64,000 nt of DNA, from positions 1,178,001-1,242,000 of the forward strand of contig NZ_CP042968.1 of assembly GCF_001693515.2 (NCBI RefSeq). Reading direction: 5' to 3'. The notes under the pieces were generated by a model. It saw only the letters and a list, made by a program, of their open reading frames with translations. It did no database searches and was not told the DNA's origin. The stretch's first letter is position 1, and each line of letters starts with the position of its first letter. This DNA comes from Bradyrhizobium paxllaeri. GTDB lineage: Bacteria > Pseudomonadota > Alphaproteobacteria > Rhizobiales > Xanthobacteraceae. A program made the translations under genes and the position numbers. Of this stretch, positions 5,271-28,410 are shown piece after piece.

Positions 5271-6284
5271 TCAGTCGATCGCGATCGCCACCTTGCCGAA
5301 GTGCGTGCCGCTCTCCATGTGGGAAAACGCCTGTTTCGCCTGATCGAAGGCAAAGGTCCTGTCAATCACCGGCTTCATCTTGTGAACCGCCGTTGCCTCC
5401 ACCATCGCCTTGAGATCCTCGACCGATCCGACGGTGACGCCCTGCAGCCGCTGCTGCTGCATCACCATCAAGGGGAGGCGCGAGTCTGACGGCGGCGGGC
5501 CGGCGAGCACGCCGATGAAGGCGATGGTGCCGCCGATCCTGACAGCCCGGATCGACTCGTTCAGCGTGCCGACCCCGCCAACCTCAACGACGAGGTCGAC
5601 GCCCTGGCCGCTCCATTCGCGGGCCTTCTTTCCCCAGTCGGGCGTCGCCTTGTAGTTCAAGGTGAAGTCGGCGCCGAGCTGCTTGACGCGTTCGATCTTG
5701 CCGTCGCTGGAGGAAGTTGCGATGACGCGCGCGCCGCACATTTTGGCAAATTGAATGGCAAAGAGCGAAACGCCGCCGGTGCCTTGCGTCAGAACGATCT
5801 GTCCGGGCCTGATGCCGCCGAACTTGACGACCGCGCTCCAGGCCGTGACGCCGGCGCAGGGGAGTGCGGCGGCTTCGATGTCGCTGAGATGCTCCGGCGT
5901 TCTGACCAGCGCATGTTTTGGAAAGATCCGATACTGCGTCAACACGCCGTCGACCGAGCCACCGAGAGCCCGATTCATTTTTTCTGCGCTGGGTTCACCG
6001 CTGAGCCAGCTTTCGAAGAAGCTGCCGATGACGCGATCACCGGCTGCGAACTCCCGCACGCCCGGGCCGACCCGCTCGACGACACCAGCACCGTCCGAAA
6101 CCGGCACAAGCGGGAATTTCTGGCGCGAGCCATAGCCGCCCTTGACGGTGAGGAGATCACGATAGTTCAGCGTTGCCGCTTTGAGCCGGACGAGCACCTG
6201 GCCTTCGCCGGGCTCCGGCACAGGCTTGTCGACGAAGGCAAGTCCATCGATTCCGTTCGGTCCCTGCAGCTCATAGCACTTCAA
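5271..6284 (-). CDS. Zinc-independent MDR-type NAD(P)-dependent quinone oxidoreductase/alcohol dehydrogenase
   Basis: A 337-residue medium-chain dehydrogenase/reductase. The N-terminal GroES-like half has the quinone-reductase pattern LNYRDLLTVKGGYG in place of the CGTD catalytic-zinc motif of true alcohol dehydrogenases, and the Rossmann half carries GTGGVSLFAIQFAK for NAD(P)H binding. It is therefore more likely a zeta-crystallin-like quinone or enal reductase. I chose the TTG at 6284 because GAAGGAG precedes it at good spacing; the upstream extension has no similarity to the family. It follows the FMN reductase gene by 85 bases and may be the last enzyme of the long minus-strand cluster. 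Confidence 0.85.
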   Translation of the reverse strand: MKCYELQGPNGIDGLAFVDKPVPEPGEGQVLVRLKAATLNYRDLLTVKGGYGSRQKFPLVPVSDGAGVVERVGPGVREFAAGDRVIGSFFESWLSGEPSAEKMNRALGGSVDGVLTQYRIFPKHALVRTPEHLSDIEAAALPCAGVTAWSAVVKFGGIRPGQIVLTQGTGGVSLFAIQFAKMCGARVIATSSSDGKIERVKQLGADFTLNYKATPDWGKKAREWSGQGVDLVVEVGGVGTLNESIRAVRIGGTIAFIGVLAGPPPSDSRLPLMVMQQQRLQGVTVGSVEDLKAMVEATAVHKMKPVIDRTFAFDQAKQAFSHMESGTHFGKVAIAID

Positions 6285-6369
6285 CGGGAATCTCCTTCGG
6301 TACGCCCCAGTAAGCGCCATATTGCCGCAAATGTTCCGGTTCCGCCAAGGCTCTGAGCACGGCCGCGCG

Positions 6370-6996
6370 TCAGAACCGCGCAGCCATTTCGGCCAGCCGC
6401 CGATGCGCACCTTCGCGTGCGCTGCGGATCGGCTCGGCCGGCCCGGTGGTCGGTCCGATCGGCACGAACCGCACGTCGCTGACGCCGACGAAGCGGAGCA
6501 GCTCGCGCAGATAGGGGGTGGCCATGTCGATGCGGCCGCGATTCATGCCGGTGACGAAATCGCTGCCGCTGGCGAGGATGACAACCGTCGGCCGGTCCTT
6601 GAACAGGGGCAGATAGCCTTGCGCGGGATCGAAACGGAACGCCAGCCCGGGCTGCGTGATCACGTCGACCCATTGCTTCAGTTTGTAGGGAATACCGAAG
6701 TTCCACATCGGCGTCGAGATCAGTACGCGATCGGCGAGCGCGAAGCGGATCGCGATGCGCTCGGCGACCGCAAAGGCATCGCGCTGCGAGTCGGTGAAAG
6801 CCCGGCCGTCGATGCGGGCATATTTGGCTTCCAGCACATAGTTCTCGAATTCCGGCAAATGATCCCGCCACAGGTTCATCGTGTCGATGTCCCAGTCCGG
6901 CCGCGCCTGCCGGAAACAGTCGATAAACACCCGCGCGCCGGCGGAGGATTCCGAGTCCGCGCGTGGCGAGCAGCTTAGGTGAAAGAGTTTTGGCAT
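6370..6996 (-). CDS. FMN-dependent NADH:quinone oxidoreductase / azoreductase-like flavodoxin-fold protein
   Basis: This 208-residue protein has the AzoR/NQO layout: an N-terminal LSCSPRADSESSAG phosphate-binding loop for FMN, a central PMWNFGIPYKLKQWVD segment that stacks on the flavin, and the ASGSDF loop. These enzymes use NAD(P)H to reduce quinones, azo dyes or nitro compounds by two electrons. It sits 13 bases after the SMP-30/isochorismatase fusion and was probably co-transcribed with it. A role in keeping the quinone acceptor of the upstream molybdenum hydroxylase reduced, or in reducing a pathway intermediate, is inference. Confidence 0.85.
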   Translation of the reverse strand: MPKLFHLSCSPRADSESSAGARVFIDCFRQARPDWDIDTMNLWRDHLPEFENYVLEAKYARIDGRAFTDSQRDAFAVAERIAIRFALADRVLISTPMWNFGIPYKLKQWVDVITQPGLAFRFDPAQGYLPLFKDRPTVVILASGSDFVTGMNRGRIDMATPYLRELLRFVGVSDVRFVPIGPTTGPAEPIRSAREGAHRRLAEMAARF

Positions 6997-7009
6997 GGCA
7001 GGATCCCGC

Positions 7010-8587
7010 TCATCCCAATCCCCTGATCACCGCGTCGGCATTGGTGACGACGGCGACATTCTGCATGGCAAAATTGATGGAGGCGTTGTGCCACTCGGCG
7101 TTCATGGTCGAGCAGCAATCCTCGGGCACGATCATGAAGTAGCCCTTGTCCGCGCCGGTGCGGGCGGTGTGCTCGATCGACATATTGGTCCAGGCGCCGG
7201 TGTTGATGATCATGTCGCGGCCGGTCGCCTTGAGGATGGTCTCTAACCGCGTGCCTTCCCACGCGCTCATCCGCATTTTCTCGACGACGAAATCGCCGGC
7301 GCGCGGCTCGAGCCCCGGAACAGGAGCCGCGCCCCAGCTTCCGCGCACCATCGCGCCGCTGTCGACCAGCCCTTCGAACAGTGGCGCATTGAGCGTGACG
7401 CCAGGCGCGCCCGGCTCGACGATGAACCAGACATGGATGATGACGACGCCGCGGGCGCGCGCGGCTTCCGCTAGGCGGCGGACATTGTCGACCACGCGTT
7501 GCTGGCGTGCGTGGCCAGGCGAGCCGGAATCGGCGAATGCGCCACCTTCCATGATCACGTCGTTCTGCAGATCCTGAATGATCATCGCGCAGCGGCGCGG
7601 ATCCAGCTGCATGTCGCCACTGGCCAGTTGGGGAGAGGCAGGCGTAGCGGTGCCAGTATCGGGTCCGGTCGAAGCCCTGCCACTCATATAAGGCTCGTGA
7701 CGCGGCCCGGCCTTGACCGGGATCGCGTAGACCGAATGCGTCGCAGTCAGATAGAGCGTGCGAAAATCAGGTCCACCCCAGGCGAGATTGGCGACGAGTT
7801 CGGGCACGCGCACCTTGCCGAGCAATTCGCTCGCGGGTGAATAGACCCATACGCCGCCGGGCGCGGTGACCCAGACGTTGCCGCGTTGGTCGCACTTCAT
7901 GCCGTCGGGCAGGCCGGGCTCGAGCTCGGAACGGATGCCGCTGGCGAAGACGCGCGCATTGGACAGCGAGCCGTCGGCCTCGACGTCGAAGACGCGGATC
8001 AGCGCCTGCACCGTGTCGTTCACGTACAGCAGGCGTTCATCGGGCGAGAAGCAGAGCCCGTTCGGCTGGTCGAACAGATGGCGGTCGACCACGAGCTTTG
8101 GCGGGCCGCCGCCGGGCGGAGCGCGAAAAACGCCCTGGAAGCCGAGCTGGCGCGGCCGCTCGACGCCGTAGACCGGCATGCGGCCATACCAGGGATCGCT
8201 GAAATAGATCGCGCCGCTCGAATGGACGCAGACGTCGTTCGGGCTGTTGAGCTCCTGGTTCTCGAAATGCGAGGCGATCACCTCGCGCCTTCCGTCTGGG
8301 CGTTCGCGGATCAGGGATGAGGTGGCATGCTCGCAGACGATCAGATTGAGCTCGGCGTCATAGGTCATGCCGTTGCATTTGTTCGAAGGACGCTTGACCT
8401 CGACCACGCCGCGCTTGGCATCCCATCGCCTTCGCACGTCGCCGGGCATATCCGAAAACAGGAGATAATGATGCGTCGGATGCCAGATCGGCCCTTCCGT
8501 GAATTCAAAGCCGGTGCCGACCTGGCCGACCGGCGCATAGGGGTCGATCAGGGCCTCGAATTCCGGGCGCAGCGTCACGTGCGTCAT
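7010..8587 (-). CDS. SMP-30/gluconolactonase-like domain fused to isochorismatase-like hydrolase domain
   Basis: A 525-residue two-domain protein. Residues 1 to about 295 form a six-bladed SMP-30/lactonase propeller with the usual metal and acid residues in EGPIWHP (E31), NSPNDVCV, DQPNGLCFSP and YVNDT. After a Ser/Thr/Pro-rich linker (about 302-325), residues 330-525 form an isochorismatase-like cysteine-hydrolase domain with Asp339 (IIQDLQND) and Lys437 (VEKMRMSAW) of the expected Asp-Lys-Cys triad. The third residue, normally Cys, is Ser470 (TNMSIEHTAR), so the second domain may be inactive or work without a thioester. The start has AAGGACGG before it. A lactonase joined to an amidase-type domain suggests successive ring-opening steps. 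Confidence 0.87.
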   Translation of the reverse strand: MTHVTLRPEFEALIDPYAPVGQVGTGFEFTEGPIWHPTHHYLLFSDMPGDVRRRWDAKRGVVEVKRPSNKCNGMTYDAELNLIVCEHATSSLIRERPDGRREVIASHFENQELNSPNDVCVHSSGAIYFSDPWYGRMPVYGVERPRQLGFQGVFRAPPGGGPPKLVVDRHLFDQPNGLCFSPDERLLYVNDTVQALIRVFDVEADGSLSNARVFASGIRSELEPGLPDGMKCDQRGNVWVTAPGGVWVYSPASELLGKVRVPELVANLAWGGPDFRTLYLTATHSVYAIPVKAGPRHEPYMSGRASTGPDTGTATPASPQLASGDMQLDPRRCAMIIQDLQNDVIMEGGAFADSGSPGHARQQRVVDNVRRLAEAARARGVVIIHVWFIVEPGAPGVTLNAPLFEGLVDSGAMVRGSWGAAPVPGLEPRAGDFVVEKMRMSAWEGTRLETILKATGRDMIINTGAWTNMSIEHTARTGADKGYFMIVPEDCCSTMNAEWHNASINFAMQNVAVVTNADAVIRGLG

Positions 8588-8609
8588 CGGTCCGTCCTTC
8601 TCTCAGCGC

Positions 8610-9458
8610 TCAGGCCGGGAACCAGTTGCGCTGGGGCAGGCTCTGCACCACAGGACCGGGCACCTGATCGTGCAGGCGGCCGATCACCATGCCGCCTTCG
8701 ATTTTTGCAGGCCGGTCATGGACCGGGAGCAGATAGCGCGAATTGCTCAGCAGTTTTTTGATAGCGGCCTTCTCCGCGCGCTTGCTGGTGCCGTGATTGC
8801 CCGTGGTGCGCGGTTCGGCGTCGTGGATTTCGTTAAAGGGGGTGACGATCTGGTCGTTGAAATCGTAGATCACGTCGCCGCAGATGGTGGCGATGCCGTC
8901 GGCGGTATGAACGTGGATGTTCATCGAGCCTTCGGTATGCGCATTGGCGGCGTCGCAATAGACACCGGGCATCAGTTCGACCGGACCGGTCACTTCGAGA
9001 TCGAGGAAGCGCAGCGCGCTTTTGGTGTGCAGGCGGTCGATCAGGTGCTTGATGTCGGGCGCCGGATATTGCGGGTGCATCAGTCCGGAGACGGAATATT
9101 CCAGCTCCTTGCGGTTGAGCACCACCGTCGTGTTCATCGGAAACAGGTCGTCCTTGCCCGCGTGATCGATATGCAGATGGGTGTGGCAGACATAGCGGAC
9201 GTCGCCCATGCGCACGCCGTGGCGCGCGAGCTGGTTCTCGATCATGTTCTCGTGGAACTGAAGCCCGCGCATGCCGAGCGTTTCCATGATCTGGTTGGAG
9301 CGATAGCCGGTATCGACCACGACGGGATAGGGGCCGCCGACAATCAGGAATCCCAGCGTCAGGACACGGCGGGTGCGGCCGCAATCGCGGCCGAGCACCA
9401 GGAAGCTCGATTCCAGTTCGATATCCCCATAATCGAGGATCTTGATCTCGAGCGGCAT
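8610..9458 (-). CDS. MBL-fold metallo-hydrolase, quorum-quenching-lactonase-like
   Basis: This 282-residue metallo-beta-lactamase-fold protein carries HTHLHIDHAG (His94, His96, Asp98, His99), a later AHTEGSMNIHV histidine, the CGDVIYDFND aspartate and a C-terminal LPVHD histidine, enough to bind two zinc ions. Among the family it most resembles the N-acyl-homoserine lactonase branch, but in a catabolic cluster a lactone or ester intermediate is a likelier substrate than a signal. The start is preceded by GGGAGGGA. It lies between the amidohydrolase and the SMP-30 fusion on the same strand; three consecutive ring-opening-type enzymes stand out. Confidence 0.85.
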   Translation of the reverse strand: MPLEIKILDYGDIELESSFLVLGRDCGRTRRVLTLGFLIVGGPYPVVVDTGYRSNQIMETLGMRGLQFHENMIENQLARHGVRMGDVRYVCHTHLHIDHAGKDDLFPMNTTVVLNRKELEYSVSGLMHPQYPAPDIKHLIDRLHTKSALRFLDLEVTGPVELMPGVYCDAANAHTEGSMNIHVHTADGIATICGDVIYDFNDQIVTPFNEIHDAEPRTTGNHGTSKRAEKAAIKKLLSNSRYLLPVHDRPAKIEGGMVIGRLHDQVPGPVVQSLPQRNWFPA

Positions 9459-9498: not shown

Positions 9499-10389
9499 TC
9501 ATCGGTCGAGCCGGTAGACGCGCGTGGCCGTCTTTCGCAGAACGGCGTCGCGCTGATCCGCGGCGAGCGAGGCCGTGGCGACGAGAAAGGCGTCGATCAG
9601 TTCGCGATAGGTCGTCCAGAGTTTTTCGATCGGAAAATTGGAACCGAACAGGCAGCGATCGGCGCCGAAGATCGCAACCGTATCGGCGAGGATGCCGGCG
9701 ATGTGGGCGGGGTCGTTGCGATGGATGAAGGTGCCGAGGCCGGAAAGTTTTGAGACGACGTTGGGGCAGGTCGCGAGCCGGCCCATGCCGCTGCGCCAGA
9801 GGGACCGGCCCTGCGCTGAAAGGTCCTCCAGCATGCCGGCGTGCTGCAGGATGAAGGTTACGTCGGGGCAGGCTTCCGCGAGGCCGGCGGCATCCGCCAT
9901 CTGCGGCGCGAACACCTGCAGATCGAAGCTGAAACCGTAGTCGGCGAGCCGCGCGACGTTACGGCGGATTTTGGGATCGGCGCAGAGATCGGACCGGGCC
10001 GCAAAACGATAGAGCGGATTCTCGTGCCAGTGCAGTTGCATGCGCACGCCGCGCACCAGCGGATAGTGCGCCAGACGGTCGAGCTGCGGGCGAACGTCGT
10101 CGACGTTGAAATCCGCATAGGAGACGATGGCGTGCGGCCAGCCGTGGTCTTTCGCGGTCTCCTGCACCCACGCCGTTTCGTCCTCGAAGCGGTCGTTGGC
10201 CCAGTTGGTCTGCACATAGACCGAGCGCGTGACGCCGGATCCTGCGAGGTCGCCGAGATATTCCCGGATCGGATAGTCGCGCCGGATCGGCTCGTAGGGC
10301 CCGAAGATGCGCGGCTGCATCGGGCCAACAAGCCAGGGCAGGTCGGCCTGACGCCAGATATGATGATGGGCATCGACGATATCGGTCAC
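9499..10389 (-). CDS. Amidohydrolase-family TIM-barrel hydrolase (COG3618, lactonase-like)
   Basis: This 296-residue protein begins with VDAHHHIW, the HxH metal-binding strand of the amidohydrolase-2 family, and keeps a central WHENP histidine, the ILQHAG histidine, and the C-terminal FGSNFPIEK aspartate-region motif seen in the fuconolactonase/2-pyrone-4,6-dicarboxylate lactonase branch. Relatives hydrolyse lactones or cyclic acids after ring oxidation. The GTG start overlaps the CoxE-like stop by four bases, so it is translationally coupled to the molybdoenzyme maturation genes, which ties a ring-opening hydrolase to the hydroxylase. Confidence 0.87.
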   Translation of the reverse strand: MTDIVDAHHHIWRQADLPWLVGPMQPRIFGPYEPIRRDYPIREYLGDLAGSGVTRSVYVQTNWANDRFEDETAWVQETAKDHGWPHAIVSYADFNVDDVRPQLDRLAHYPLVRGVRMQLHWHENPLYRFAARSDLCADPKIRRNVARLADYGFSFDLQVFAPQMADAAGLAEACPDVTFILQHAGMLEDLSAQGRSLWRSGMGRLATCPNVVSKLSGLGTFIHRNDPAHIAGILADTVAIFGADRCLFGSNFPIEKLWTTYRELIDAFLVATASLAADQRDAVLRKTATRVYRLDR

Positions 10390-11504
10390 GCGGCCTTCCT
10401 TTGTCCAAGCGAGAGTACATGCGAAACGATCGCGGCTGATGATCCGCCGTCAACCAAATCATTCACGAAGCGGCGGATCGCGATCAGCGCTTCGGTCTGC
10501 GGCTGAAAGCCAGCGCCTGAGGCCAGCGGCGTCAGCCAGCTCAGCCGCCAGGCACGCCGCGACAATTTTGCGACGGCATCGCGCAGGGCAGATGGATCGC
10601 CGCGCTCCAGTCCGTCGGAGAGGATGACGACGGCGGCGCCACGTGCATAGCCACCGAACCGCGGCACCGCGAGGAATGCCTGCAGCGCGTCGCCGATCCT
10701 TGTGCCGCCATCCCAATCGCTGACCAGATGGGCCGCCGCAGATAGCGCCTGCTCGCGCCGCTTGAGACGGAGCGCGCGGCTGACGCGGGTGAGCCTTGTG
10801 CCGAAGGTGAACACCTCGACATTGGGCGCCGCATGCACGATGGCATGCGCGAGCTTCATGTTGTCGTCGGTGCGTCCCTTCATCGAGCCGGAGACGTCGA
10901 TCAAGAGCAGCACCTTGCGCGGGCGGGTGCGCCGCTTGAGCCGACCGAGCCGCAGCACCTCGCCGTCGTTGCGCACGCTGTCGCGCAAGGTGCGGCGAAG
11001 ATCCGCCCAAGGACCGCGGCGGGCGCGCATGCGCCGGTGGCCCCGACGTCGCGGCAGCCGGGCAGGAGCCTCGCGTGAAAGCCGACGCAGCGCATCACTG
11101 GTTTGGCTTGGCGCGAAGCGGCGCTCGACCAGCGCCTCGGCGCGGGCTGCAACAAGTCCGGACTCGTTGGCCTCGTCAGCCAGCAATGTCTCGTCCTCGC
11201 CGCGACCTTCCTCTTGCAGGCGAACCACTTCCTCATCTTCCGCGCCCGCATGATCCACCGCCTCGCTGCCGAGGAAATGGAGGTCGAACAGCCGGTCGTA
11301 AGTGGCGCGACGCTCGGGCGGCGGGGCGAGCGTCGCCAGCCCCGCTTGACGGATCGCTTCCATGCTGCGCGGGCCGAGTAGCTCGATCGCTGCCAGGAAC
11401 GCCGTCGTCTGTTCCGGCGCGACCGCAAAGCCGTTGACGCGCAGTAGCGCGACAAAGGACACGAAGACGCCGGCGGCGCGCGGTAATTGAAGTTCGTCGC
11501 TCAC
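10386..11504 (-). CDS. VWA-domain protein, CoxE-like molybdoenzyme maturation factor
   Basis: This 372-residue protein has the CoxE layout: a helical N-terminal half (MSDELQ to about residue 180, acidic in the middle) and a C-terminal von Willebrand A domain with the metal-site motif LIDVSGSMKGR near residue 200, followed by a conserved Thr and Asp. In carboxydotrophs CoxE works with the AAA ATPase CoxD to insert sulfur/copper into the molybdenum site of CO dehydrogenase; relatives serve other molybdenum hydroxylases. Here it overlaps the MoxR-type ATPase by four bases (GTGA), the standard CoxD-CoxE pairing. Confidence 0.86.
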   Translation of the reverse strand: MSDELQLPRAAGVFVSFVALLRVNGFAVAPEQTTAFLAAIELLGPRSMEAIRQAGLATLAPPPERRATYDRLFDLHFLGSEAVDHAGAEDEEVVRLQEEGRGEDETLLADEANESGLVAARAEALVERRFAPSQTSDALRRLSREAPARLPRRRGHRRMRARRGPWADLRRTLRDSVRNDGEVLRLGRLKRRTRPRKVLLLIDVSGSMKGRTDDNMKLAHAIVHAAPNVEVFTFGTRLTRVSRALRLKRREQALSAAAHLVSDWDGGTRIGDALQAFLAVPRFGGYARGAAVVILSDGLERGDPSALRDAVAKLSRRAWRLSWLTPLASGAGFQPQTEALIAIRRFVNDLVDGGSSAAIVSHVLSLGQRKAA

Positions 11505-12382
11505 GCGGCAGCCTCCGCAATCAGGGCGTCGAGCCGGCCGGAAATGAAGGTGAGGTCCTCCTCATCCTTCAGTGCGACGCCGATCGATCGCTTGAAGGCA
11601 TCCGGCCAGCGCGCGCCGCGCGCGTGCAACAGCGTGGCCGCTTCCGCCCAATCCACCGCCTCGGCGATGCCGGGCGCCTTGCTAAGCGGCTCGCGCCGCA
11701 GCTTGCCGACGGCGGCGACGACAGCGTGGGCGGTGGATTCGGCGACGCTCGAGGCCCGCATCATCACGATGCGCGCCTCGCGCTCGGCGGTGGGATAGTC
11801 GATCCAGTGATAGACGCAGCGGCGGCGCAGCGCTTCGTGCAGGTCGCGGGTGCGGTTCGAGGTCAGCACGACGACGGGGCGCTCGGCGGCGCGGACTGTG
11901 CCGCGTTCGGGAATGGAGATCTGGAAGTCGGAAAGGAATTCGAGCAGGAACGCCTCGAACTCCTGGTCGGCGCGATCGATTTCGTCGATCAGCAGCACGG
12001 TGGAATCGGGCGCGCGCAACGCGGCCAGCATCGGCCGTTCGATCAAAAAAGTTTCGCCATAGATGTCGATGCTCTCCTCACCGGCCTGGCGGATCGCGAG
12101 CATCTGACGCGGATAGTTCCACTCGTAGAGTGCGGCGGATGCGTCGATGCCCTCGTAGCATTGCAGCCGGATCAGGCGGCGGCCGAGCACGGCGGCGATG
12201 GCCTTGGCGGCCTCGGTCTTGCCGACACCGGGCGCGCCTTCGAGCAGCAGCGGCTTGCCGAGTGCCAGCCCAAGATAGGCCGCCGTCGCGAGGCCGTCGT
12301 CAGCGAGGTAATAGGCTGTGCGCAAGGCACGTTCGAGCGCCTCGGGGCTGTCGATGCCAACAATGTTGCCGCGGACCGTCAT
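11501..12382 (-). CDS. MoxR/CoxD-like AAA+ ATPase
   Basis: This 293-residue AAA+ protein carries Walker A (LEGAPGVGKTEAAK), Walker B (VLLIDEIDRADQEF), a sensor-1 VLTSNRTRDLHEALRRRC and an arginine finger region, typical of the CoxD branch of MoxR ATPases. Such proteins act as chaperones that remodel an apo-enzyme during metal-centre assembly, usually with a VWA partner, which is encoded by the overlapping downstream gene. It follows the C-terminal half of the molybdopterin subunit by nine bases. Together these support a dedicated maturation system for the cluster's molybdenum hydroxylase. Confidence 0.88.
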   Translation of the reverse strand: MTVRGNIVGIDSPEALERALRTAYYLADDGLATAAYLGLALGKPLLLEGAPGVGKTEAAKAIAAVLGRRLIRLQCYEGIDASAALYEWNYPRQMLAIRQAGEESIDIYGETFLIERPMLAALRAPDSTVLLIDEIDRADQEFEAFLLEFLSDFQISIPERGTVRAAERPVVVLTSNRTRDLHEALRRRCVYHWIDYPTAEREARIVMMRASSVAESTAHAVVAAVGKLRREPLSKAPGIAEAVDWAEAATLLHARGARWPDAFKRSIGVALKDEEDLTFISGRLDALIAEAAA

Positions 12383-12391
12383 GCTCTCGCC

Positions 12392-13414
12392 TCAGCGCCG
12401 CGCCTGCGGCCGCGCGCCGCCTTGCGCCTTGATCGCCCGCAAGACTTTCTCGGGCGTGATCGGCAATTCATCCATCCGCACGCCGACCGCATTGAAGATC
12501 GCGTTGGCCACCGCCGGCAGCACGGGGTTGGCGCACATCTCGCCGGGGCCCTTGGCGCCGAACGGCCCGTCGGCGGCGGGACGTTCCAGCACGGCGATAT
12601 CGTGCGGGCAGGTGTCGCCGGGCCCGGGCATCAGATACTCGACGAAGTCGCGCGGACCATGCGCGGGATCGGGATAATAGGGCTCGGGCGTTTCAAACAG
12701 CGCGTGGCTGACGCCCATCCAGGCGCCGCCGACGAGTTGTTGCTCCACGAGGCGTGGATTGAGCGCACGCCCGAGTTCATAGGCGCTGTCCATACGCACC
12801 ATCGCGACTTCGCCGGTCTCATCGTCGACCTCGACCTCGGCAACGAGGCAGGCATGCGCGTAGCAGGTGGCGGGGGACATCTCGCCGGTCTCGGGGTTCA
12901 CTTCCGACAGCGGCACCAGGAAGATGCCGCGTCCCGAGATCGTCTTGCCCTGCTTGAACTGCGCGGCGATGGCGACGTCCTTGGTGGAAATCGAGCGGTG
13001 CGGCGCGCCCTTGACGTGGATGTTGCCGCGACCGTCCGTATCGAGATCGGCGGCGTTGACTTCCAGCTCCTCGGCGGCAGCTTCCATCATGACGCCGCGC
13101 GCTTCCCTGGCCGCCGCCATCACCGCGTTGCCGACGCGATGGGTGCCGCGCGAGGCGAACGAGCCCATGCAGTGCGGGCCGGTGTCGGAATCCGCAGTGT
13201 CGACATAGACGTCCTCGACCGGCACGCCGAGCGTCTCGGCGCAGATCTGCCGCGTCACCGACTTCATGCCTTGGCCGAGGTCGATCGACGACAACGATAC
13301 CGTGAACTTGCCGCTGGGGTTGGAATGAACCAGCGCCTGGCTGGGGTCACCGCCAAGGTTCATGCCGATGGGATAGTTGATCGAGGCGATGCCGCGTCCG
13401 CGATGTCTGGCCAT
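12392..13414 (-). CDS. Molybdenum hydroxylase large subunit, C-terminal half (xanthine dehydrogenase family)
   Basis: A 340-residue protein that corresponds to the second half of a molybdopterin-binding large subunit. It starts at the RGRGIA strand and contains the GQGMKSV molybdopterin contact and the C-terminal FGAKGPGEM motif carrying the catalytic glutamate of the family. It lacks the N-terminal half, which the gene just upstream encodes; the two sum to roughly one full-length subunit. The ATG is two bases after the upstream stop and in a different frame. Either the enzyme is assembled from two polypeptides or one frameshift has split it. The catalytic residues are intact, so an inactive relic is unlikely. 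Confidence 0.85.
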   Translation of the reverse strand: MARHRGRGIASINYPIGMNLGGDPSQALVHSNPSGKFTVSLSSIDLGQGMKSVTRQICAETLGVPVEDVYVDTADSDTGPHCMGSFASRGTHRVGNAVMAAAREARGVMMEAAAEELEVNAADLDTDGRGNIHVKGAPHRSISTKDVAIAAQFKQGKTISGRGIFLVPLSEVNPETGEMSPATCYAHACLVAEVEVDDETGEVAMVRMDSAYELGRALNPRLVEQQLVGGAWMGVSHALFETPEPYYPDPAHGPRDFVEYLMPGPGDTCPHDIAVLERPAADGPFGAKGPGEMCANPVLPAVANAIFNAVGVRMDELPITPEKVLRAIKAQGGARPQARR

Positions 13415-20982: not shown

Positions 20983-23208
20983 TCACCTCGCGACTTTCCG
21001 ACGTGTCCCCGGGCGTCCGACCAGAGGGCGGAGCGCGTTGACGATGGCGGATGCAAATTCGGGCTCGTTGATGTGGCGCTTGATGCGGATGAGCTGGCGG
21101 TTGCCGGTCTGGCGCACGCTGCGTTCCAGCGCGGTAAACAGTGCGGCATCGGCCTCCGGATCCCAGAACGGCTGTCCCGGTGCGTCGAGTGCGGAGACGC
21201 CGCCTTCGGGGAGGAAGAAGCGCACCGACCCGTCCATCCGGTTGAGCTTGTCGCCGATCCAGCGCCCGATCCGGTCGTTCTCCTCCGGCGTGGTGCGCAT
21301 CAAGGTCACCTGCGGATTGTGAACGTGGAATTTGCGCTGGCGGTAGTGTTCGGGAATCGTATCGGGCGCGCCGAAATTGACCATGTCGAGCGCACCCACT
21401 GAGCCGATGAAGGGCACGCGGCTGCGAATGATCGCGCCGAAGCGATCTTCCGTTGCCGGGAACACGCCGCCCATCAGGAGGTCGCAGACCTCCGTCGTCG
21501 TGAGGTCGATGACGCCTGCGAGCATTCCGGAATCGACCAGCTTCTCCATCGAGCGACCGCCGACGCCGGTGGCGTGGAAGACGAGGCATTCGAAATCGTT
21601 GCGCAGATCGGCTGCGATCTTCTGCACGGCCGGCGTCGTCACGCCGAACATGGTGATGCCGACCGCCGGCAGATCCGCCGGCGCCCTGCGCTCATTCGCG
21701 GCCTGATTGTCGAGCCGCGCCTTCACCATGCCGGCGATGGCGTTGGCGCCATTGGCGAGCACGGCGCGCGAGATCGAGTTGAGGCCCTGCACGTCGGTGA
21801 CCGAATACATCATCGTGATATCGGCCGGTCCGACATAGGGGCCGACATCTCCCGATGCGACCGATGAGATGATGAGCTTTGGTACGCCGACGGGGAGGGC
21901 GCGCATGCCTGGTGCGACCAGCGAGGCACCGCCGGAACCGCCCGCCGAAATGATGCCGGCGATATTGCCCTGGCGGCGCAGCCAGTTGGCGAAGGCGTCC
22001 GCCATCGCGGAAACCGACGTGCCGCGATCGGCGCCGAACACGCTCGATCCGCCGCGCCCATGATTCAGCGCGATTTCCTGCGCGGAGACGTCGCAGGTGG
22101 AGAGCTTGCCGCTGGTGGAGACGTCGACCAGGCGTGTCCGCAAACCCTGCCCGGCGATCACGTCGCGGATGAAGCGCAGCTCCTCGCCCTTGGTATCGAG
22201 CGTTCCGACAACGAGGACGACCGGCGGCCCGGATGCGCTTTGCACGCCTGCGCCGGCCTGACGCTTCTGCCGCGCGGCATCTTCGATGCGCGCCACGCCG
22301 CTCGAGAGCGTGCGCGCGGCGTTCTCGATGCGGGCGATGGGTATCGGCTGTGACCAGCGCGTCGGCAGCGTGGGATTGGAGATATAGACCCGAACCGGCG
22401 CTGCGCTTGGGGCGCGCGGCTGCGCGGGACGCGTTTCGGCGCGTGCGTCGGCGGCGGCGATATCCAGTTCCGGCTCGGCGCCATGGACACCGACGCCAAG
22501 CAGCCGCTGTTGCAGCTCGCGGTCGGCGGCCAGGCGCGCGGAGTCGATGATGCGATTGACGCGGCCGTTGACCATGATCGCGACGTTTTTCGAGATCGCG
22601 GTGGCGACGCCGATATTCTGCTCGATCACGAGCACCGACATGTCACCGTCCTCGCCGAGCCGCACCAGCATGTCCTCGACCTGGGCGACGATGACAGGCG
22701 CAAGCCCTTCGGTCGGCTCGTCCATGATGAGAAGTTGCGGGTTGGTCAGCAGAGCGCGCGAGATCGCCAGCATCTGCTGTTCGCCGCCGGAGAGCTGGCC
22801 GCCGCCATGGTCCTTGCGCTCGGCCAGGCGGGGAAACGTCTCGTAGATGCGGTCGATGCTCCAGGCGCCGCGCCGCATTCCGGCGGCAAGCTGCAGATGC
22901 TCGTCGACGCTGAGCGAGCGCCACAGCCGCCGCCCTTGCGGTACATATCCGACGCCTGCTTGCGCGATCCGCGCCGGGCTGAGGCGGGTGATGTCCTCGC
23001 CGCGGACCCGGACCGAACCGCCGCTCGCCCGCAGCAGGCCCATGATGGTCTTGCACAGCGTGGTCTTGCCCATGCCGTTACGGCCGACCACCGAGAACAC
23101 GCCGGAATCCAGCGTTAGATCGACGCCCTGCAGCGCATGCGAATGGCCGTAATAGACGTCGAGGCCGCGGACTTCGAGGGCGGGCGCGGCGCGGCGGACA
23201 TCATTCAT
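20983..23208 (-). CDS. LivF-type ABC ATPase fused to Tm-1-like (UPF0261) domain
   Basis: A 741-residue fusion. Residues 12-240 form a complete LivF-type ATPase with Walker A (GRNGMGKTT, 42-50), signature LSGGEQQ (139-145) and Walker B ([11 protein letters not shown]). Residues 243-327 are an Ala/Arg/Pro-rich linker. From residue 328 ([13 protein letters not shown]) to the end lies a full Tm-1-like ATP-binding domain, with [33 protein letters not shown] and the VFHATGVGG loop. Start at 23208, overlapping the LivG stop by eight bases. As LivF it should complete the transporter with LivG, LivM and LivH; the attached domain may couple import to the first step of metabolism. Tm-1 in tomato blocks tobamovirus replication, but the bacterial function is unknown. 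Confidence 0.88.
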
Positions 23209-23983
23209 GGCCGGCCCCCAGATAGAGTTCCTGCACCTCGGGGTCGGCTTCGATCTCGTGCGGCAATCCCTCTTTGAAGACACGGCCGTTGTGCATCATC
23301 GTGACGCTTTCGACGACGCGCAGTGCGACGTCCATGTCGTGCTCGATGATGATGTAGCCGATATGGGCGGGCAGCGACGTCAGGATCTCGATCAGTTCGC
23401 GCCGCTCGGTGGGCGAGAGCCCTGCGGCCGGCTCGTCGAACAGGATGAAGCGCGGGGCGCCGGCGAGCGCGAGCGCGATTTCGAGCTGCCGCTGCTGGCC
23501 ATGCGCGAGTTCCGCGACCCGCTGCTCCCTGACTGATGTCAGATGCACGGCCTGGATCAGGGCTTCGGTCGCATGCATCAGTGCGTCGTTCGTGCCCGGA
23601 CGCAGCACCGAAAACCGTCCGCGGGAAACGCCGCGGCAGGCTAAATAGACATTGTCCCGCACCGAGAGGCCGGGGAACAGCGCCGAGATCTGGTAGGTGC
23701 GGCGCAGGCCCCGCCTGATCCGCTCATACGGCGGGAAGTGGGTGATGTCCTCACCGAAGAACCGGATGGTGCCGGATGACGGCGGAAAATCGCCGGTCAC
23801 GCAATTGAACAGCGTAGTCTTGCCGGCGCCGTTGGAGCCGAGCACGGCGCGGCGCTCGCCCGGGCGAACCGTGATGGTGACGTCGGTGAGCGCCGCGAGC
23901 GCCCCGAACAGCCGGGTCACGCCGCGCAGTTCCAGCGCAGCGCCGGCAGCAACCGATGAAAAGCGTGGCGCGGCATTATCCAT
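23201..23983 (-). CDS. livG: LivG-type ABC transporter ATP-binding protein
   Basis: A 260-residue ABC ATPase with Walker A (GSNGAGKTT), the LivG-type insertion PFSVLRPG-like segment after the Q-loop, a degenerate signature ([15 protein letters not shown]) and Walker B ([15 protein letters not shown]), closing with [10 protein letters not shown]. The [10 protein letters not shown] signature is normal for LivG. It overlaps the LivM stop by eight bases and the LivF fusion start by eight bases, so the ABC genes are tightly coupled. It pairs with the LivF half of the next gene as an ATPase heterodimer. Confidence 0.92.
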
Positions 23984-25058
23984 GCGGCTTCCCTCCGCTT
24001 GGACGCGCGTCAGTGGCTGCAGCGCGGCGGCGCCAGCGCTCCCACAGTCCGATCACGCCATCCGACGACCAGAACACGATGGCGAGGAAGCCGAGGCCGA
24101 TCAGCAGCCGGAAGCGGTTGCCGTCGAGCCCGAACTTGACCAAGAGATCGAGCGCGAAGGTGCGAAGGATGACGAAGATGAAGGCGCCGATGTAGGGGCC
24201 GACGGGACGGCTGATGCCGCCGACAACGGCGATAATCAGGATGTCGATGCAGGCGCCGACGCTGACCGAGCCGGGCGAGATCTGCCGGTAGTTCCACACC
24301 TGCAGCACGCCGCCGAGCGCGGCGATGAAGGCGGCAAAGGCATAGGCGGCCACGCGGTGTGCGTTGACATTGAAACCGAGCGCCGCCATGCGGCGGGGAT
24401 TGTCGCGCACGCCCTGCAGCGCCAGGCCGAACGGGGCACGCGAGACATATTGAACGGCGAAATAGCAGAAAGCAGCGACGCCCAGCGTAACGTAATAGAA
24501 GGGGATGTCGGAACGCCAGTCGACGCCCCAGAATTTCGGCGTCGCGACCGTGTTGATGCCGGTATGGCCGCCGAAGATCGCCCAGTTCTGGTTGGTGAAA
24601 TAATAGAAAGCCGCGCCGATCGCGAGCGTGATCATGATGGTGTAGATGCCCTCGGTGCGCACCGCAAGTGCACCGCCGAGCGTGCCGAACGCGGTCGCGA
24701 GCAGCAGCGCCATCGGCGTTGCCAGCCACCACGGCCAGCCGAGGCTGATATTGGTGTTGGCGCTCATGCCGAACACGGCGACCATGTAGGCGGCAAAGCC
24801 GGCGACGGTGAGCTGCATCAGGCTGACCATGCCGCCATAACCGGCGAGGAACATCAGGCTGAGCGCGATGGTCCCGAGGATCATCGTGGTGGCGAAGATC
24901 TCGATCAGGAAGAAGCCGTTGGCGATGAACGGCATGATCAGGAGGATCACGGCGACCAGCCAAACCGCCGGCTTGTTGAATTCCGGCCACGCCAGCAGTA
25001 TCGCGCGTGCCTTTGCCGGCTGACTGGTCTGAGGATGGGTGCCCTGGACCAACGACAT
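23976..25058 (-). CDS. livM: LivM-type ABC transporter permease
   Basis: A 360-residue inner-membrane protein with about ten hydrophobic helices. It has the LivM landmarks: a GYGGMVSLMQ segment (usually G-GQ-SLG), the cytoplasmic GVRDNPRRMAALGFNV loop that contacts the ATPases, and the GGISRPVGPYIGAF loop. It starts one base after the LivH stop region. With LivH it forms the membrane channel of a branched-chain amino acid/amide/urea-type importer; such systems in this group often carry aromatic or heterocyclic acids instead. Confidence 0.92.
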   Translation of the reverse strand: MSLVQGTHPQTSQPAKARAILLAWPEFNKPAVWLVAVILLIMPFIANGFFLIEIFATTMILGTIALSLMFLAGYGGMVSLMQLTVAGFAAYMVAVFGMSANTNISLGWPWWLATPMALLLATAFGTLGGALAVRTEGIYTIMITLAIGAAFYYFTNQNWAIFGGHTGINTVATPKFWGVDWRSDIPFYYVTLGVAAFCYFAVQYVSRAPFGLALQGVRDNPRRMAALGFNVNAHRVAAYAFAAFIAALGGVLQVWNYRQISPGSVSVGACIDILIIAVVGGISRPVGPYIGAFIFVILRTFALDLLVKFGLDGNRFRLLIGLGFLAIVFWSSDGVIGLWERWRRRAAATDARPSGGKPHG

Positions 25059-25059: not shown

Positions 25060-26070
25060 TCATCGCCTCGCCAACAGGCCCTGCGGCCGCAGCGCCAGCA
25101 CCAGCACCATGATGAGGAAGGTCACCACGATCGCGTAGGTCGGGATGTAGACCGAGCCAAGCTGCTCGGCGAGGCCGATGATGACGGCGCCGAGCGCCGC
25201 ACCCGGAATCGATCCCATGCCACCGACGATCACGACGACGAGCGAAGCCAGCAGAAAGCGGGTGTCTTCGCCGGGCGAGATCGATTGAAAGGTTCCGCCC
25301 ACGACACCTGCGATTCCCGCAAGCCCTGCGCCGAGCGCGAACACGGCCACGAAGACGAGCTGGATCGGCACGCCGGTGGCCGCGAGCATGTCACGGTCAT
25401 CGACGCCGGCGCGCACCATCATGCCGACGCGAGTCCGGTTGAGTGCCAGCCACATCGCGATGCCAATCACCACCGCCGCGACGAAGATCACGAGCCGCAC
25501 CATCGGGTAACGCAGATACACCGCTTCGCCGGAGGATCTGACCGCGGTGACCAGCGGCAATTCAATCGGGCCGACCAGCCAGCTCGGGGTCTGGATCTGG
25601 TAGAAGTCGCCGCCGAATGCCCACAGCATCAGGTCCGCAAACACGATCGAGAGCCCGATCGTCACCATGGTCTGGCGCAGATCCTGTCCTTCCATGCGGC
25701 GGAAGACCACGATTTGCAGCACGATGCCGACCAGGGCGACACCGAGAAACGCGATGACGAAGCCGAGGATCCAGGAACCGGTCCAGGCGCTGATGGCGTA
25801 ACCGATGTAGCCACCGAACAGATAGAGCGAGCCATGCGCCAGATTGACGTTGCGCATCAGCCCGAAGATCAGCGTGAATCCGCTCGCGACCAGGAAGTAG
25901 AGGCCGCCGAGCGTGATGCCGTTGAAGACGGCGTTGAGAAAGACCCGCTTCCTGCCGAACGCTTCTTCGAGGCCGGGTGGCCAGACGGCAAGGATCAGCC
26001 ACAACAGCACCGCGACCGCGATCAAGACGATCAGCGCCCATGCCGGATGGCGTTCGATGAATCGTGTCAC
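25060..26070 (-). CDS. livH: LivH-type ABC transporter permease
   Basis: A 336-residue permease with about eight membrane helices and LivH landmarks: GITLGGLYFLVASGFTLIFGLMRNVNLAHGSLY near the N terminus, the AGVDDRDMLAATGVPI cytoplasmic coupling loop, and GGMGSIPGAALGAVIIG. The GTG start at 26070 lacks a strong Shine-Dalgarno sequence. It lies 129 bases after the AraC gene stop, so the transporter genes may have their own promoter in that gap, though I cannot identify one. Confidence 0.9.
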   Translation of the reverse strand: MTRFIERHPAWALIVLIAVAVLLWLILAVWPPGLEEAFGRKRVFLNAVFNGITLGGLYFLVASGFTLIFGLMRNVNLAHGSLYLFGGYIGYAISAWTGSWILGFVIAFLGVALVGIVLQIVVFRRMEGQDLRQTMVTIGLSIVFADLMLWAFGGDFYQIQTPSWLVGPIELPLVTAVRSSGEAVYLRYPMVRLVIFVAAVVIGIAMWLALNRTRVGMMVRAGVDDRDMLAATGVPIQLVFVAVFALGAGLAGIAGVVGGTFQSISPGEDTRFLLASLVVVIVGGMGSIPGAALGAVIIGLAEQLGSVYIPTYAIVVTFLIMVLVLALRPQGLLARR

Positions 26071-26199
26071 GGTAGCAGCGCGGCCGTCACCATGCCGTCC
26101 TCCCAGACGCGCGGCCGTTTCGGCTCGCGTTTTGGGACCATTCTAATGGGGCCGCGGAGCTTGCACTTGATTGTGAGTATCTTTTCGCGCGCTCTGCGC

Positions 26200-27027
26200 T
26201 CAGGGGCGCAAGACTTTGGCGGCGCGGCGGTATTCGGTCGGCGCCATTCCGACATTGGCGGCGAAGAAACGGGTGAAACCGCTCTGGGAGGAGAAGCCGA
26301 GATCGAAGCCGATATCGGCAATCGGCACCTCGGTCGCGACCAGCGCGTCCAGCGCCTGTTCCATGATCAGTGTATTGAGATAGAGGTTCGGGGTGACGCC
26401 GGTCTGGGTACGGAACAGCCGGTAGAAGTGCGGGCGCGACAGCCCGGAGGCCCGCGCGATCGAATCCAGTTCGATCTCCGCACCTGGGCTTTCGGACATC
26501 AGCTTGATGGATTTGCGGACGCGAAAGTCGGTGATGGCGCTGGCGCTGCGCGTCTCCTGCACCGGCTCGGAACTCTGCCAGCTCTCCTCATAGCATCCGT
26601 CGATCAACTGCCTGAGTTCGCTATCGAGACTGCTTAGCGAGGGTGCGCCGCAGACCAGCGCCGCGGTTCGCCGGATATGCCTGTCGAGGGCGACGGTGCG
26701 CTTGAAACAGGTATGGCCGAACCGCAAACCGTGAGCGCGCGCCGCATCGGGAGCGAACCATTCGGCGTTGACGTAGAGCACGAAGAAGATCGCGCCGTTC
26801 TCCATGTCCGTCGGGACAAAATTGTGTGGTTCCCAGGGGTTGATGGCAACAATGGAATCTTCCGCGAGAAGCCATCGCTCGTCGCACACATCAATGCGCG
26901 CCGGTGTTCCACCGACATGAAAGATCAGGTGCCCTTCGCGATGCGCATGCATGTTGAAGGGGCGGTTCAACTGATAGACCGTCGCGCGACCGAACCGGCC
27001 GTGGAAGACGGCGAGAGCCTTGCTCAT
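26200..27027 (-). CDS. AraC-family transcriptional regulator
   Basis: A 275-residue regulator: an N-terminal cupin effector domain (residues 10-150, with HREGHLIFHVGG and INPWEPHNF) and a C-terminal double helix-turn-helix (about 175-275, with ASGLSRPHFYRLFRTQTGVTPNLYLN and the FSSQSGFTRFFAANVGMAPTEYRR signature). The frame stays open upstream, but the ATG at 27027 has GGGAGGGAAGG just before it. It lies inside the transporter operon, between the binding-protein gene and livH, and so probably senses the imported compound or a metabolite and controls the cluster. Confidence 0.9.
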   Translation of the reverse strand: MSKALAVFHGRFGRATVYQLNRPFNMHAHREGHLIFHVGGTPARIDVCDERWLLAEDSIVAINPWEPHNFVPTDMENGAIFFVLYVNAEWFAPDAARAHGLRFGHTCFKRTVALDRHIRRTAALVCGAPSLSSLDSELRQLIDGCYEESWQSSEPVQETRSASAITDFRVRKSIKLMSESPGAEIELDSIARASGLSRPHFYRLFRTQTGVTPNLYLNTLIMEQALDALVATEVPIADIGFDLGFSSQSGFTRFFAANVGMAPTEYRRAAKVLRP

Positions 27028-27113
27028 GCCTTCCCTCCCGCGGGATGTTCTTGTCTTTTTCAACCAGCGTTCAACATCCGCCGCGAGAATGCAAGGGAAG
27101 ATCACGTCCAGCC

Positions 27114-27140
27114 CGGGCCCCGGCGCGTGACCGGGGCCCG
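27114..27140 (-). promoter_or_regulatory. GC-rich intercistronic hairpin after the binding-protein gene
   Basis: A perfect 10-base inverted repeat (CGGGCCCCGG and CCGGGGCCCG) with a 7-base loop sits 20 bases past the binding-protein stop and 87 bases before the AraC start. No T-run follows on either strand, so it is more likely an mRNA-stabilising or attenuating hairpin than a classic terminator. It would raise binding-protein mRNA over the downstream genes. Confidence 0.6.
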
Positions 27141-27159
27141 TTCGCAAATGCGAAGAGAG

Positions 27160-28410
27160 TCAGTACTTCTTACACTCCGGAACCGTCCGGCTCGGCAGGC
27201 CGATCTTGGAGAAGACCGCAGGGTCATAGCCAAGCGTCTGGTTCACGTTCGGGATCACCTTCACGACCTTGCTGAACAAGGCGCCCTTGCCGTCATCCAC
27301 CACCTCGGTGACGAAGTTGGTGCCGATGGCCTGACGGTTGGAGTCAAGCTTGATCTTGCCGTTGGGCGCGTCGAGCTCGATCTTGGCCAGCGCTTCCCTG
27401 TATTTCGCCTGGTTGTTGCTGAGATCGCCGTTGACCTGACGCAGCGCGAGGATCAGCGCCGCCGTCGAGTTGTAGTAGTTGGTGGCGAGCAGTGACGGGC
27501 TCGGGAAGCGTTTGTTTGGCGGGAAGGCGTCCTGATAGGCCTTCACGAACTTCTGCCAGCCCGGATCCTCCCAGGTGTCGGCCTGGCCGCTCGCGGCAAT
27601 GGTGCCGAGCAGCGCGTTCTTGGCGTTGCCCTTGGCGGAAAGAATGGTCTGGTCGACCATGATCGAGCCGCCCATCAAATGCGCCTTGCCGCCGGCCTGC
27701 TGGTACTGATTCAGGAAGTTGACGGCGTCGGCGCCGCCGAGGCCGAGGTAGATCGCATCGACGTCGTCGGGCAGAGCGGCAATGACCGAGGCAAAGTCCT
27801 TGGTGCCGAGCGGCACCCATTGCCGGTTGGTGACCTTTCCGCCGGCGCCGCAGAATTCGAGCACGAGCCCGAACACCTGCGTATAGATGAACGAATAGTC
27901 TTCGCCGACTGTCGCTATCTTTCGGTAACCCTTGGTTTCATAGGCGTATTTGCCGAGGCCCACCTGCCACTGGGCGCCGTCCATGTTGTAGCGGAAGAAG
28001 TTCGGCGCGGGATCGACAAAGGTGGTTTCCTGCGCGCCGGAAGCGGCGTTGATGAAGGTTAGTTCCGGGCGCGTCTTGGCAAAGTTCTTGACCGCGATGC
28101 CTTCGTCACCGGACAGGGGTGAAAGCAGGATCTGGACCTTGTCCTGTTCGATCAGCTTGCGCACGGCACGAACCGCGGAATCGGGCGTGGCATCCGTCGA
28201 CGCGATGATGAATTCGATTTCCTTGTCGCCGACCTTCTTGCCGAGCGTGTTGATGGCCGTCTGATGTCCGCGTATGCCGTCCTCGCCGAGCACGGTATAG
28301 GTGCCTTCGAGCGTCGCGGTGACGCCGACCTTGATTTTCTCCTGGGCTATGGCGGCGCTGGAAAGCAACAGGCTGCTCAGCGCGACCAGTCCCGCACAGC
28401 TTTTAAACAT
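27160..28410 (-). CDS. Liv-type periplasmic ABC substrate-binding protein
   Basis: A 416-residue binding protein with a clear signal peptide (MFKSCAGLVALSSLLLSSAAIAQ) and the type-I periplasmic-binding fold: GVTATLEGTYTVLGEDGIRG at the N terminus, DATPDSAVRAVRKLI, then hinge and C-terminal lobe. Start at 28410 (GGGAGGGG before it); the upstream frame is non-coding. It is the first gene of the long minus-strand cluster and supplies the Liv permeases downstream. The ligand is unknown. A single C-terminal Cys-Lys-Lys-Tyr end is unremarkable. Confidence 0.9.
   Translation of the reverse strand: MFKSCAGLVALSSLLLSSAAIAQEKIKVGVTATLEGTYTVLGEDGIRGHQTAINTLGKKVGDKEIEFIIASTDATPDSAVRAVRKLIEQDKVQILLSPLSGDEGIAVKNFAKTRPELTFINAASGAQETTFVDPAPNFFRYNMDGAQWQVGLGKYAYETKGYRKIATVGEDYSFIYTQVFGLVLEFCGAGGKVTNRQWVPLGTKDFASVIAALPDDVDAIYLGLGGADAVNFLNQYQQAGGKAHLMGGSIMVDQTILSAKGNAKNALLGTIAASGQADTWEDPGWQKFVKAYQDAFPPNKRFPSPSLLATNYYNSTAALILALRQVNGDLSNNQAKYREALAKIELDAPNGKIKLDSNRQAIGTNFVTEVVDDGKGALFSKVVKVIPNVNQTLGYDPAVFSKIGLPSRTVPECKKY

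Follow-up and report, generated by a model that had tools for sequence, protein, structure and literature searches.

A conserved gene block of Bradyrhizobium paxllaeri groups a split molybdenum hydroxylase, bearing a candidate tether, with a giant flotillin and a Liv importer

What might bring an importer, a giant flotillin, a molybdenum (Mo) hydroxylase and a row of hydrolase-like proteins together in one run of genes? This question is raised by a block of 21 co-directional genes, running from 28410 to 5271 on the minus strand of a 64,000-nt window from Bradyrhizobium paxllaeri (contig NZ_CP042968.1; "the window" is the whole stretch analyzed, and all coordinates are positions within it), which an initial annotation had read as uptake, membrane-docked Mo hydroxylation and ring opening. 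We tentatively propose a module that catabolizes a small cyclic or carbonyl compound and in which the Mo hydroxylase would be leashed to a flotillin scaffold beside the importer. Each domain involved is already known, and what is new is a conserved catabolic module with a candidate tether. Bacterial flotillins are described as scaffolds, but to our knowledge no client of theirs with a defined docking sequence is known. The cluster offers a candidate that is simple genetically: a tip of 11 residues, carried by a single enzyme, that tracks flotillin in natural relatives.

The tip ends the product of coxLa, the first of two genes encoding the Mo subunit. Tailed coxLa proteins extend 75-184 residues beyond residue 450, contain 22% proline in this extension and terminate in RFSSVFGTRRR or a variant. 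The strict tip pattern occurs in 105 among the 120 best of 7640 database relatives, the other 15 being near variants, cut ends, shifted frames and three fused forms. In a MAFFT alignment of 28 divergent loci, representatives chosen via an ungapped identity measure, identity is 73% over the last 11 residues and 72% over the folded core, with only 23% over the linker between them. Within the window the ending is unique (one of 577 stop-to-stop frames of at least 60 codons). The tip as an encapsulin cargo peptide was ruled out, as the B. paxllaeri genome, the sole genome searched, gave no match to PF04454 and has no encapsulin gene.

Tail and flotillin occur together. Among distinct loci, the flotillin gene lies upstream in all 119 tailed loci that could be judged, i.e., whose available flank reaches 7.5 kb (11 of 130 could not), and in none of the 16 judgeable tailless loci (3 of 19 were not judgeable). 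These presence counts require at least 40% identity, and CoxE at 36-40% in three loci (G305, G387, and L320) was scored as absent. Other genes were not constant in tailed loci, including those for the PEP_hydrolase-family barrel protein (PEPh; 110 of 112), the metallo-beta-lactamase-fold protein (MBL; 59 of 65) and the SMP-30/gluconolactonase (SGL) and isochorismatase-like fusion (61 of 64). Each of these is absent from some tailed loci and is thus an unlikely partner of the tail; for PEP_hydrolase, no match was found genome-wide in G487 (100% complete) or G373 (93% complete). The two SRPBCC proteins of the block are unlikely partners as well, since they are kept in many tailless loci (SRPBCC 1 in 7 of 16, and in 10 of 12 further ones). 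No Flot-family match was found genome-wide in four of the seven tailless genomes searched (G235, G442, G541, and G472), and the other three (G459, G305, and G337) have matches elsewhere. The cluster flotillin is the sole Flot match in the tailed genomes G174, G319, and G732; G316, also tailed, has a second, and the window's own genome has two Flot-family genes, that of the cluster (open frame 971) and another (590). A prediction written beforehand for 20 further loci of another family plus L321 was followed by tail with flotillin in 9 of 9 loci and by neither in 12 of 12 loci predicted to be tailless, 11 of them clean (the twelfth, G1353, has a damaged coxLa and is apparently the same record as L318, seen before); as the prediction rested on coxLb identity, it tests clade-wide consistency, not new origins.

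All 21 genes have open frames free of internal stops, and Pfam domain searches support the named parts of every one. Intergenic gaps range from -8 to +49 nt, apart from the flanks of araC (132 and 129 nt), and past livH no gap within the cluster exceeds 49 nt, so that the single-strand cluster first described is borne out. Its parts are as follows, with E values from Pfam.

27160..28410, minus strand: LivK, periplasmic binding protein, 416 aa (Peripla_BP_6, E 5.8e-49)
26200..27027, minus strand: AraC-type regulator, 275 aa, between livK and livH (PF12833, E 1.7e-22)
25060..26070, minus strand: LivH permease (PF02653, BPD_transp_2, E 4.7e-33)
23976..25058, minus strand: LivM permease (PF02653, BPD_transp_2, E 1e-29)
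23201..23983, minus strand: LivG ATPase (PF00005, ABC_tran, E 4.4e-28)
20983..23208, minus strand: fusion of LivF ATPase and UPF0261 (Tm-1-like), 741 aa (PF00005, PF06792, PF23189)
20147..20980, minus strand: PEPh TIM-barrel protein, 277 aa (PF09370, E 5.4e-130)
17231..20122, minus strand: giant flotillin, 963 aa, with SPFH domain, long Pro/Gly-poor region and Flot C-terminal domain (PF01145, PF15975)
16784..17221, minus strand: SRPBCC protein 1, 145 aa (PF10604, Polyketide_cyc2, E 6e-30)
16339..16782, minus strand: SRPBCC protein 2, 147 aa (PF10604, Polyketide_cyc2, E 4.5e-16)
15504..16322, minus strand: CoxM-like FAD subunit (PF00941, FAD_binding_5; PF03450, CO_deh_flav_C)
15018..15497, minus strand: CoxS-like [2Fe-2S] subunit (PF01799, Fer2_2; PF00111, Fer2)
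13417..15006, minus strand: coxLa, first half of the Mo subunit, 529 aa, with hammerhead and MoCoBD_1 domains, Pro-rich tail and conserved tip (PF01315, PF02738)
13417..13452, minus strand: codons of the tip RFSSVFGTRRR plus stop, in which AGG AGG (Arg) forms a Shine-Dalgarno-like site ahead of coxLb
12392..13414, minus strand: coxLb, second half of the Mo subunit, 340 aa, MoCoBD_2 (PF20256, E 4.5e-58)
11501..12382, minus strand: CoxD-like AAA ATPase (PF07728, AAA_5)
10386..11504, minus strand: CoxE-like VWA protein (PF05762, VWA_CoxE, E 1.1e-46)
9499..10389, minus strand: amidohydrolase-2, cog3618-like, Asp to Asn in FGSNFP (PF04909, Amidohydro_2)
8610..9458, minus strand: MBL lactonase-like enzyme, metal-ligand motif retained (PF00753, Lactamase_B)
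7010..8587, minus strand: SGL and isochorismatase-like fusion, Ser replacing the catalytic Cys (PF08450, PF00857)
6370..6996, minus strand: flavodoxin-fold NAD(P)H reductase, accessory (PF02525, Flavodoxin_2)
5271..6320, minus strand: zinc-type alcohol dehydrogenase, accessory (PF00107, PF08240)

The uptake genes with their own regulator were recognized correctly at the outset, and the araC-type gene keeps its position in the loci of relatives; the nearest PDB sequence to LivK, 4zpj, carries no ligand assignment. The N and C parts of UPF0261 in the LivF fusion match Tm-1 3wry (E 6.8e-100) and 9mpy (E 3.2e-56), and the PEPh protein matches PDB 2p10 (Mll9387) at E 5.3e-119. Both the Band_7/SPFH and the Flot domain of the flotillin score above cut-off; the cluster flotillin measures 860-1085 aa across 72 named loci and contains 300 residues free of Pro and Gly, followed by 287 that hold five Gly. 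For the SRPBCC proteins, PF10604 was the sole Pfam match at E <= 0.001, with none to the CoxG family, the PDB neighbors are 7tmu, 2le1, and 3cnw, and the AlphaFold model of SRPBCC 1 (mean pLDDT 52.7) is too low in confidence for fold comparison.

The Mo hydroxylase was initially described as having three parts and CoxD/CoxE-like maturation genes; the enzyme and the CoxD/E-like genes stand, but its large subunit is two genes, cut between MoCoBD_1 and MoCoBD_2, which makes four polypeptides. The FAD, [2Fe-2S] and Mo-cofactor Pfam domains of the xanthine oxidase family are all present, and the Glu of the GxGE motif, the catalytic residue of Mo hydroxylases of this family, is kept in 161 of 161 loci. 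The best PDB matches are the two Mo-subunit chains of Eubacterium barkeri nicotinate dehydrogenase (3HRD), 3hrd_A for coxLa (for which the query in PDB and database searches lacked the first Met) and 3hrd_B for coxLb. The two are separate genes in 35 of 35 relative loci, with 0-4 nt in between, and seven loci, all from one family, carry an additional gene of 0.6-1.6 kb between them, whose product looks by eye either GFA-like or like a DMT-type transporter. The active loop reads TAMRGFG in the window, with AMRGFG in 161 of 161 loci, and differs from that of carbon monoxide (CO) dehydrogenase, which carries a Cu-binding Cys. Scored separately, the halves reached 167.3 and 113.5 bits (sum 281) against TIGR02416 and 162.3 and 138.5 bits (sum 301) against NF040766, two models of the CO dehydrogenase large subunit with cut-offs of 991 and 950; judged by model score the enzyme is not a CO dehydrogenase, in keeping with the earlier argument against CO as substrate.

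Is the block inherited as a unit? SRPBCC 1 matched in 32 of 198 genomes of the family (E <= 1e-15) and coxLb in 23 of 41 relatives (E <= 1e-60), both counts including the window's own genome. Of 46 relative neighborhoods, 27 are complete from livK through the SGL/isochorismatase fusion in a single order and orientation: 24 from the same genus, two from other genera (G174 and G051), and one from another family (G233). Among the remainder, six end at contig edges, two lack the amidohydrolase (G157 and G217), two have livK inverted (G115 and G049), eight that had been selected via weak SRPBCC matches have no Mo hydroxylase match, and one (G235) holds the Mo enzyme, CoxD/E and amidohydrolase only. 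All 13 tested genes, UPF0261 to MBL, are present in 54 of 58 named loci spanning at least 20 kb (scored by tblastn in loci picked for a close SRPBCC 1), and gene order is preserved in further genera and families at protein identities of roughly 40-90%, beyond what chance would give. The neighborhood comparison suggested in the initial annotation thus gave no sign of independent scatter; yet the block is co-inherited over a shorter extent than first drawn, as a conserved core of 19 genes at 7010-28410. Outside this unit, the final two genes of the block were added locally: among the loci examined, the flavodoxin-fold gene (6370-6996) occurs in Bradyrhizobium-type loci only, and the alcohol dehydrogenase gene (5271-6320) in 4 of the 46 neighborhoods. 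In 34 loci inspected, no gene downstream of the SGL/isochorismatase fusion is generally conserved.

Further afield, coxLb matched (E <= 1e-100) in 60 of 397 genomes of the order, 8 of 385 of the class, 16 of 398 of the phylum, and 46 of 247 of the family of G442; these genome sets overlap, as do the named and unnamed locus sets. A scan of named genomes with SRPBCC 1 found at least 557 relatives, of which the best 80, 58 of them the loci of at least 20 kb scored above, include Bradyrhizobium, Bosea, Xanthobacter tagetidis, Aquabacter, Phreatobacter, Pseudolabrys and Methylobacterium bins. Plasmids of Shinella and Yoonia also bear the cluster, the Shinella copy without an MBL match. The block is common to many soil and plant-associated bacteria and defines an uncharacterized catabolic pathway in Bradyrhizobium, Bosea, Xanthobacter, Aquabacter, Shinella, Yoonia and others; the open-access literature yielded no description of the cluster, which agrees with the initial remark that no pathway with this gene set had been described, although the tip sequence itself was not a target of that search. 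In tailless loci, the split enzyme is accompanied by the amidohydrolase and CoxD (each in 14 of 18) and CoxE (11 of 18). These are its commonest partners outside the tailed clade; the Mo hydroxylase and amidohydrolase would represent the core chemistry, and the distribution suggests an order of assembly in which this core was joined by the SRPBCC pair, and last by the importer fusion, flotillin, tail and other hydrolases.

The hydrolase domains gave a mixed picture. Aligned to 4dlf, an L-fucono-lactonase-type enzyme, the amidohydrolase shows Asn at the position of the FGSDWP Asp in 140 of 140 loci, so that the cog3618 lactonase motif (L-fucono-1,5-lactonase type) is not preserved, and it scores 102 bits against NF052480 (cut-off 400). 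The MBL HxHxDH motif and the SMP-30 metal ligands are unaltered in 127 of 127 loci. Of the isochorismatase-like triad, Asp and Lys are kept in 123 of 123 loci and Cys in none, Ser standing in its place in all 123 and in all 120 listed of 7388 database relatives (74-95% identical), forming a natural Cys-to-Ser family; the solved relative 3kl2 has Cys at the nucleophile position. A passage in PMC7948467 gives the corresponding C162S variant of triuret hydrolase as inactive. The amidohydrolase and isochorismatase-like domains, half of the set of four, may therefore be noncanonical or not hydrolases, and the ring opening first proposed is more weakly founded than was claimed.

At the level of sequence, then, the block comprises a Liv importer with an AraC-type regulator, a four-polypeptide Mo hydroxylase, CoxD/E-type genes, lactonase-type folds and a tail. 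From these we infer a route in which the Liv system would import a small compound, the Mo enzyme would oxidize one of its ring or aldehyde carbons, and processing of the product would fall to the MBL, SMP-30 and amidohydrolase enzymes, with UPF0261 and PEPh perhaps serving a late step or regulation. The Pro-rich tail would act as a flexible leash, its tip anchoring the Mo enzyme to flotillin, the simplest partner, or to the LivF-UPF0261 ATPase and thereby placing oxidation at the membrane next to the import pore. Membrane docking was part of the initial proposal, and the tail that tracks flotillin supplies a candidate element for it, but in Pfam the SRPBCC proteins match no CoxG family. Going further, and in our opinion unlikely as a whole, the flotillin may form the wall of a membrane catabolic compartment around the Liv importer, with the Mo hydroxylase inside on its RFSSVFGTRRR-type leash, so that oxidation and opening would occur before the compound or a reactive intermediate reaches the cytoplasm. 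If true, this would be a dedicated enzyme-to-flotillin tether within a metabolic pathway. A wall taller than the human cage is conceivable, given the Pro/Gly-free 300 residues and the scarcity of Gly in the next 287.

Several observations weigh against a leash to flotillin or against the module it would serve. The tail is a single change on a 70-locus tree (built after setting aside 16 close genus loci and four whose La is cut or damaged), so that the tail and flotillin counts are not independent. The livF-UPF0261 fusion is as constant as flotillin, being present in 85 of 85 judgeable tailed loci, with only one tailless locus judgeable. Six of 117 judgeable tailed loci have no amidohydrolase, a usual catalytic residue is absent in two of the four hydrolase domains, and curated NCBIfam equivalogs, full-length models against which the halves were scored separately, all remain far below cut-off. 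For coxLa, AlphaFold gave a model of low confidence over the whole length (mean pLDDT 44.2), unsuited to fold comparison. The constancy of livF-UPF0261 favors a possible, if doubtful, alternative in which the tip docks elsewhere, on the LivF-UPF0261 ATPase or, by way of its Arg and Phe residues, directly on anionic membrane lipid, while flotillin separately scaffolds the importer or a lipid domain. The basic and aromatic composition of the tip would suit lipid, but in our judgment the RFSS-type pattern exceeds the specificity of a generic lipid-binding tail, and the four tailless genomes devoid of any Flot-family match count against this alternative. A last objection concerns the tip itself: in 106 of 130 distinct tailed loci the last coxLa codons contain AGGAG, only a few bases ahead of coxLb, and as this is the ribosome-binding site of coxLb, RRR by itself proves little. 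That the linker is passive and its end is kept merely as a Shine-Dalgarno sequence nevertheless appears improbable. In eight loci coxLb is 582-1563 bases distant (two rows in which coxLb starts at once were left out of this list), and coxLa still ends in RRR in all eight, with codons that form no site in G318 (CGC CGC CGC) and G473 (CGT CGT CGG); in G1310 they are AGA CGA AGA. Residues before RRR are constant despite codon changes (identical codon given identical residue, 0.45, compared with 0.59 for RRR and 0.56 for the core), and the majority of tailless loci carry a GGAG-type site within the last codons but no RRR. Together, the RRR kept with distant coxLb, the varying codons before it and the tailless sites without it indicate that the tip is likely under selection at the protein level.

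Two further alternatives question the unit itself. The genes might be neighbors through co-transfer, belonging to two or more unrelated pathways, e.g., Liv, UPF0261, PEPh and SRPBCC on the one hand and the Mo hydroxylase and hydrolases on the other. Such a division would accommodate tailless loci that hold the Mo enzyme, mostly with the amidohydrolase, and miss the flotillin set, as well as the G165 neighborhood described below, but it sits poorly with an order held constant across genera and families at such divergent identities and with the short gaps from livH onward, and we regard it as improbable too. That the Mo subunit is a single gene broken by frameshift or sequencing error has a negligible chance of being correct. 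Three single-sequence fused La-Lb proteins of 865-872 aa do occur among the 120 best of the 7640 relatives; these lack the tip and look frame-shifted within the linker, however, and the junction coincides with the natural 3HRD split. The separate genes in all 35 relative loci and the intervening gene in seven exclude a frameshift as the origin of the split.

Nicotinate dehydrogenase (NdhFSLM, 3HRD) shares with the cluster enzyme separate FAD and Fe-S subunits and an Mo subunit cut at the MoCoBD_1/MoCoBD_2 border; part of PMC10331938 describes the E. barkeri enzyme as the product of four genes, of 23, 33, 37 and 50 kD. In contrast, the cluster has CoxD/E-type genes and a different neighborhood, and the 3hrd_A chain (425 residues) lacks the tail. 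The split enzyme can be classed with nicotinate dehydrogenase by predicted architecture, not by tested activity, and the cluster provides a second setting of a split-subunit Mo hydroxylase. Aerobic CO dehydrogenase (cox) clusters, which have M-S-L order and CoxD/CoxE, resemble it in both features, but here the large subunit is split, the loop is AMRGFG, scores lie far under the CO dehydrogenase cut-offs, and the SRPBCC proteins fit Polyketide_cyc2, not CoxG, whose fold is likewise SRPBCC. In cox systems, CoxG is proposed in a section of PMC13240472 to carry electrons to the quinone pool. UPF0261 and a TIM barrel are adjacent in the cluster as in Tm-1-like proteins; an extract of PMC5028733 reports the two as one fused protein in plants, whereas here UPF0261 has the ABC ATPase LivF as its fusion partner, with the TIM barrel encoded by its own gene. 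In the cluster, both domains acquire a conserved metabolic context. With flotillin/SPFH cages the cluster protein shares SPFH and Flot domains. Human flotillins form, by the account in part of PMC11260169, a cone-shaped, hole-less cage of 22 pairs, 32 nm across at its wide end and 22 nm high; the cluster member differs in its length (963 aa, compared with the 590 open frame of the other Flot-family gene in the genome) and its setting in a catabolic operon. The isochorismatase-like domain matches hydrolases such as RutB and the biuret and triuret hydrolases and keeps their triad Asp and Lys, but the cluster members examined carry Ser for the catalytic Cys.

Individual loci offered further observations. 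In the neighborhood of G165 (L090-L093, with G151), two SRPBCC genes accompany Liv genes, UPF0261 and PEPh, and the available flank gave no match to the Mo hydroxylase; the G151 neighborhood holds part of the same set, which suggests that a Liv/UPF0261/PEPh/SRPBCC submodule stands alone in some genomes. On the Yoonia sp. SS1-5 plasmid (L317), the cluster is followed by an SDR gene, a fumarylacetoacetate-hydrolase-family gene, another SDR gene and three tyrosine recombinase genes, a hint of extra pathway steps and of mobility. A haloarchaeal plasmid of Salinigranum rubrum (L319) carries a split Mo hydroxylase with a 60% identical coxLb, beside an SRPBCC gene, a cyclase-family gene, an annotated racemase, DUF1177, AroM and DUF917; across the tailless neighborhoods inspected (20 proteins of four loci plus the Salinigranum locus with its annotation), transporters were mixed and no pathway gene was shared. 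Xanthobacter tagetidis ATCC 700314 (L236), a species that degrades thiophene- and pyrrole-carboxylates, is among the carriers of the cluster. In the window's own genome, MoCoBD_1 gave 21 match segments, reflecting many Mo hydroxylase paralogues, and coxLb a single match at E <= 1e-60. A selenocysteine tRNA called by ARAGORN at 12861-12956 on the plus strand lies antisense within coxLb and is probably spurious, given its overlap with a conserved coding region. The region downstream of the block, at 847-5030 on the minus strand, encodes a pair of MacB/FtsX-type permeases together with a fusion protein of the HlyD type, whose homologues adjoin the cluster in four close relatives of the 46-neighborhood survey.

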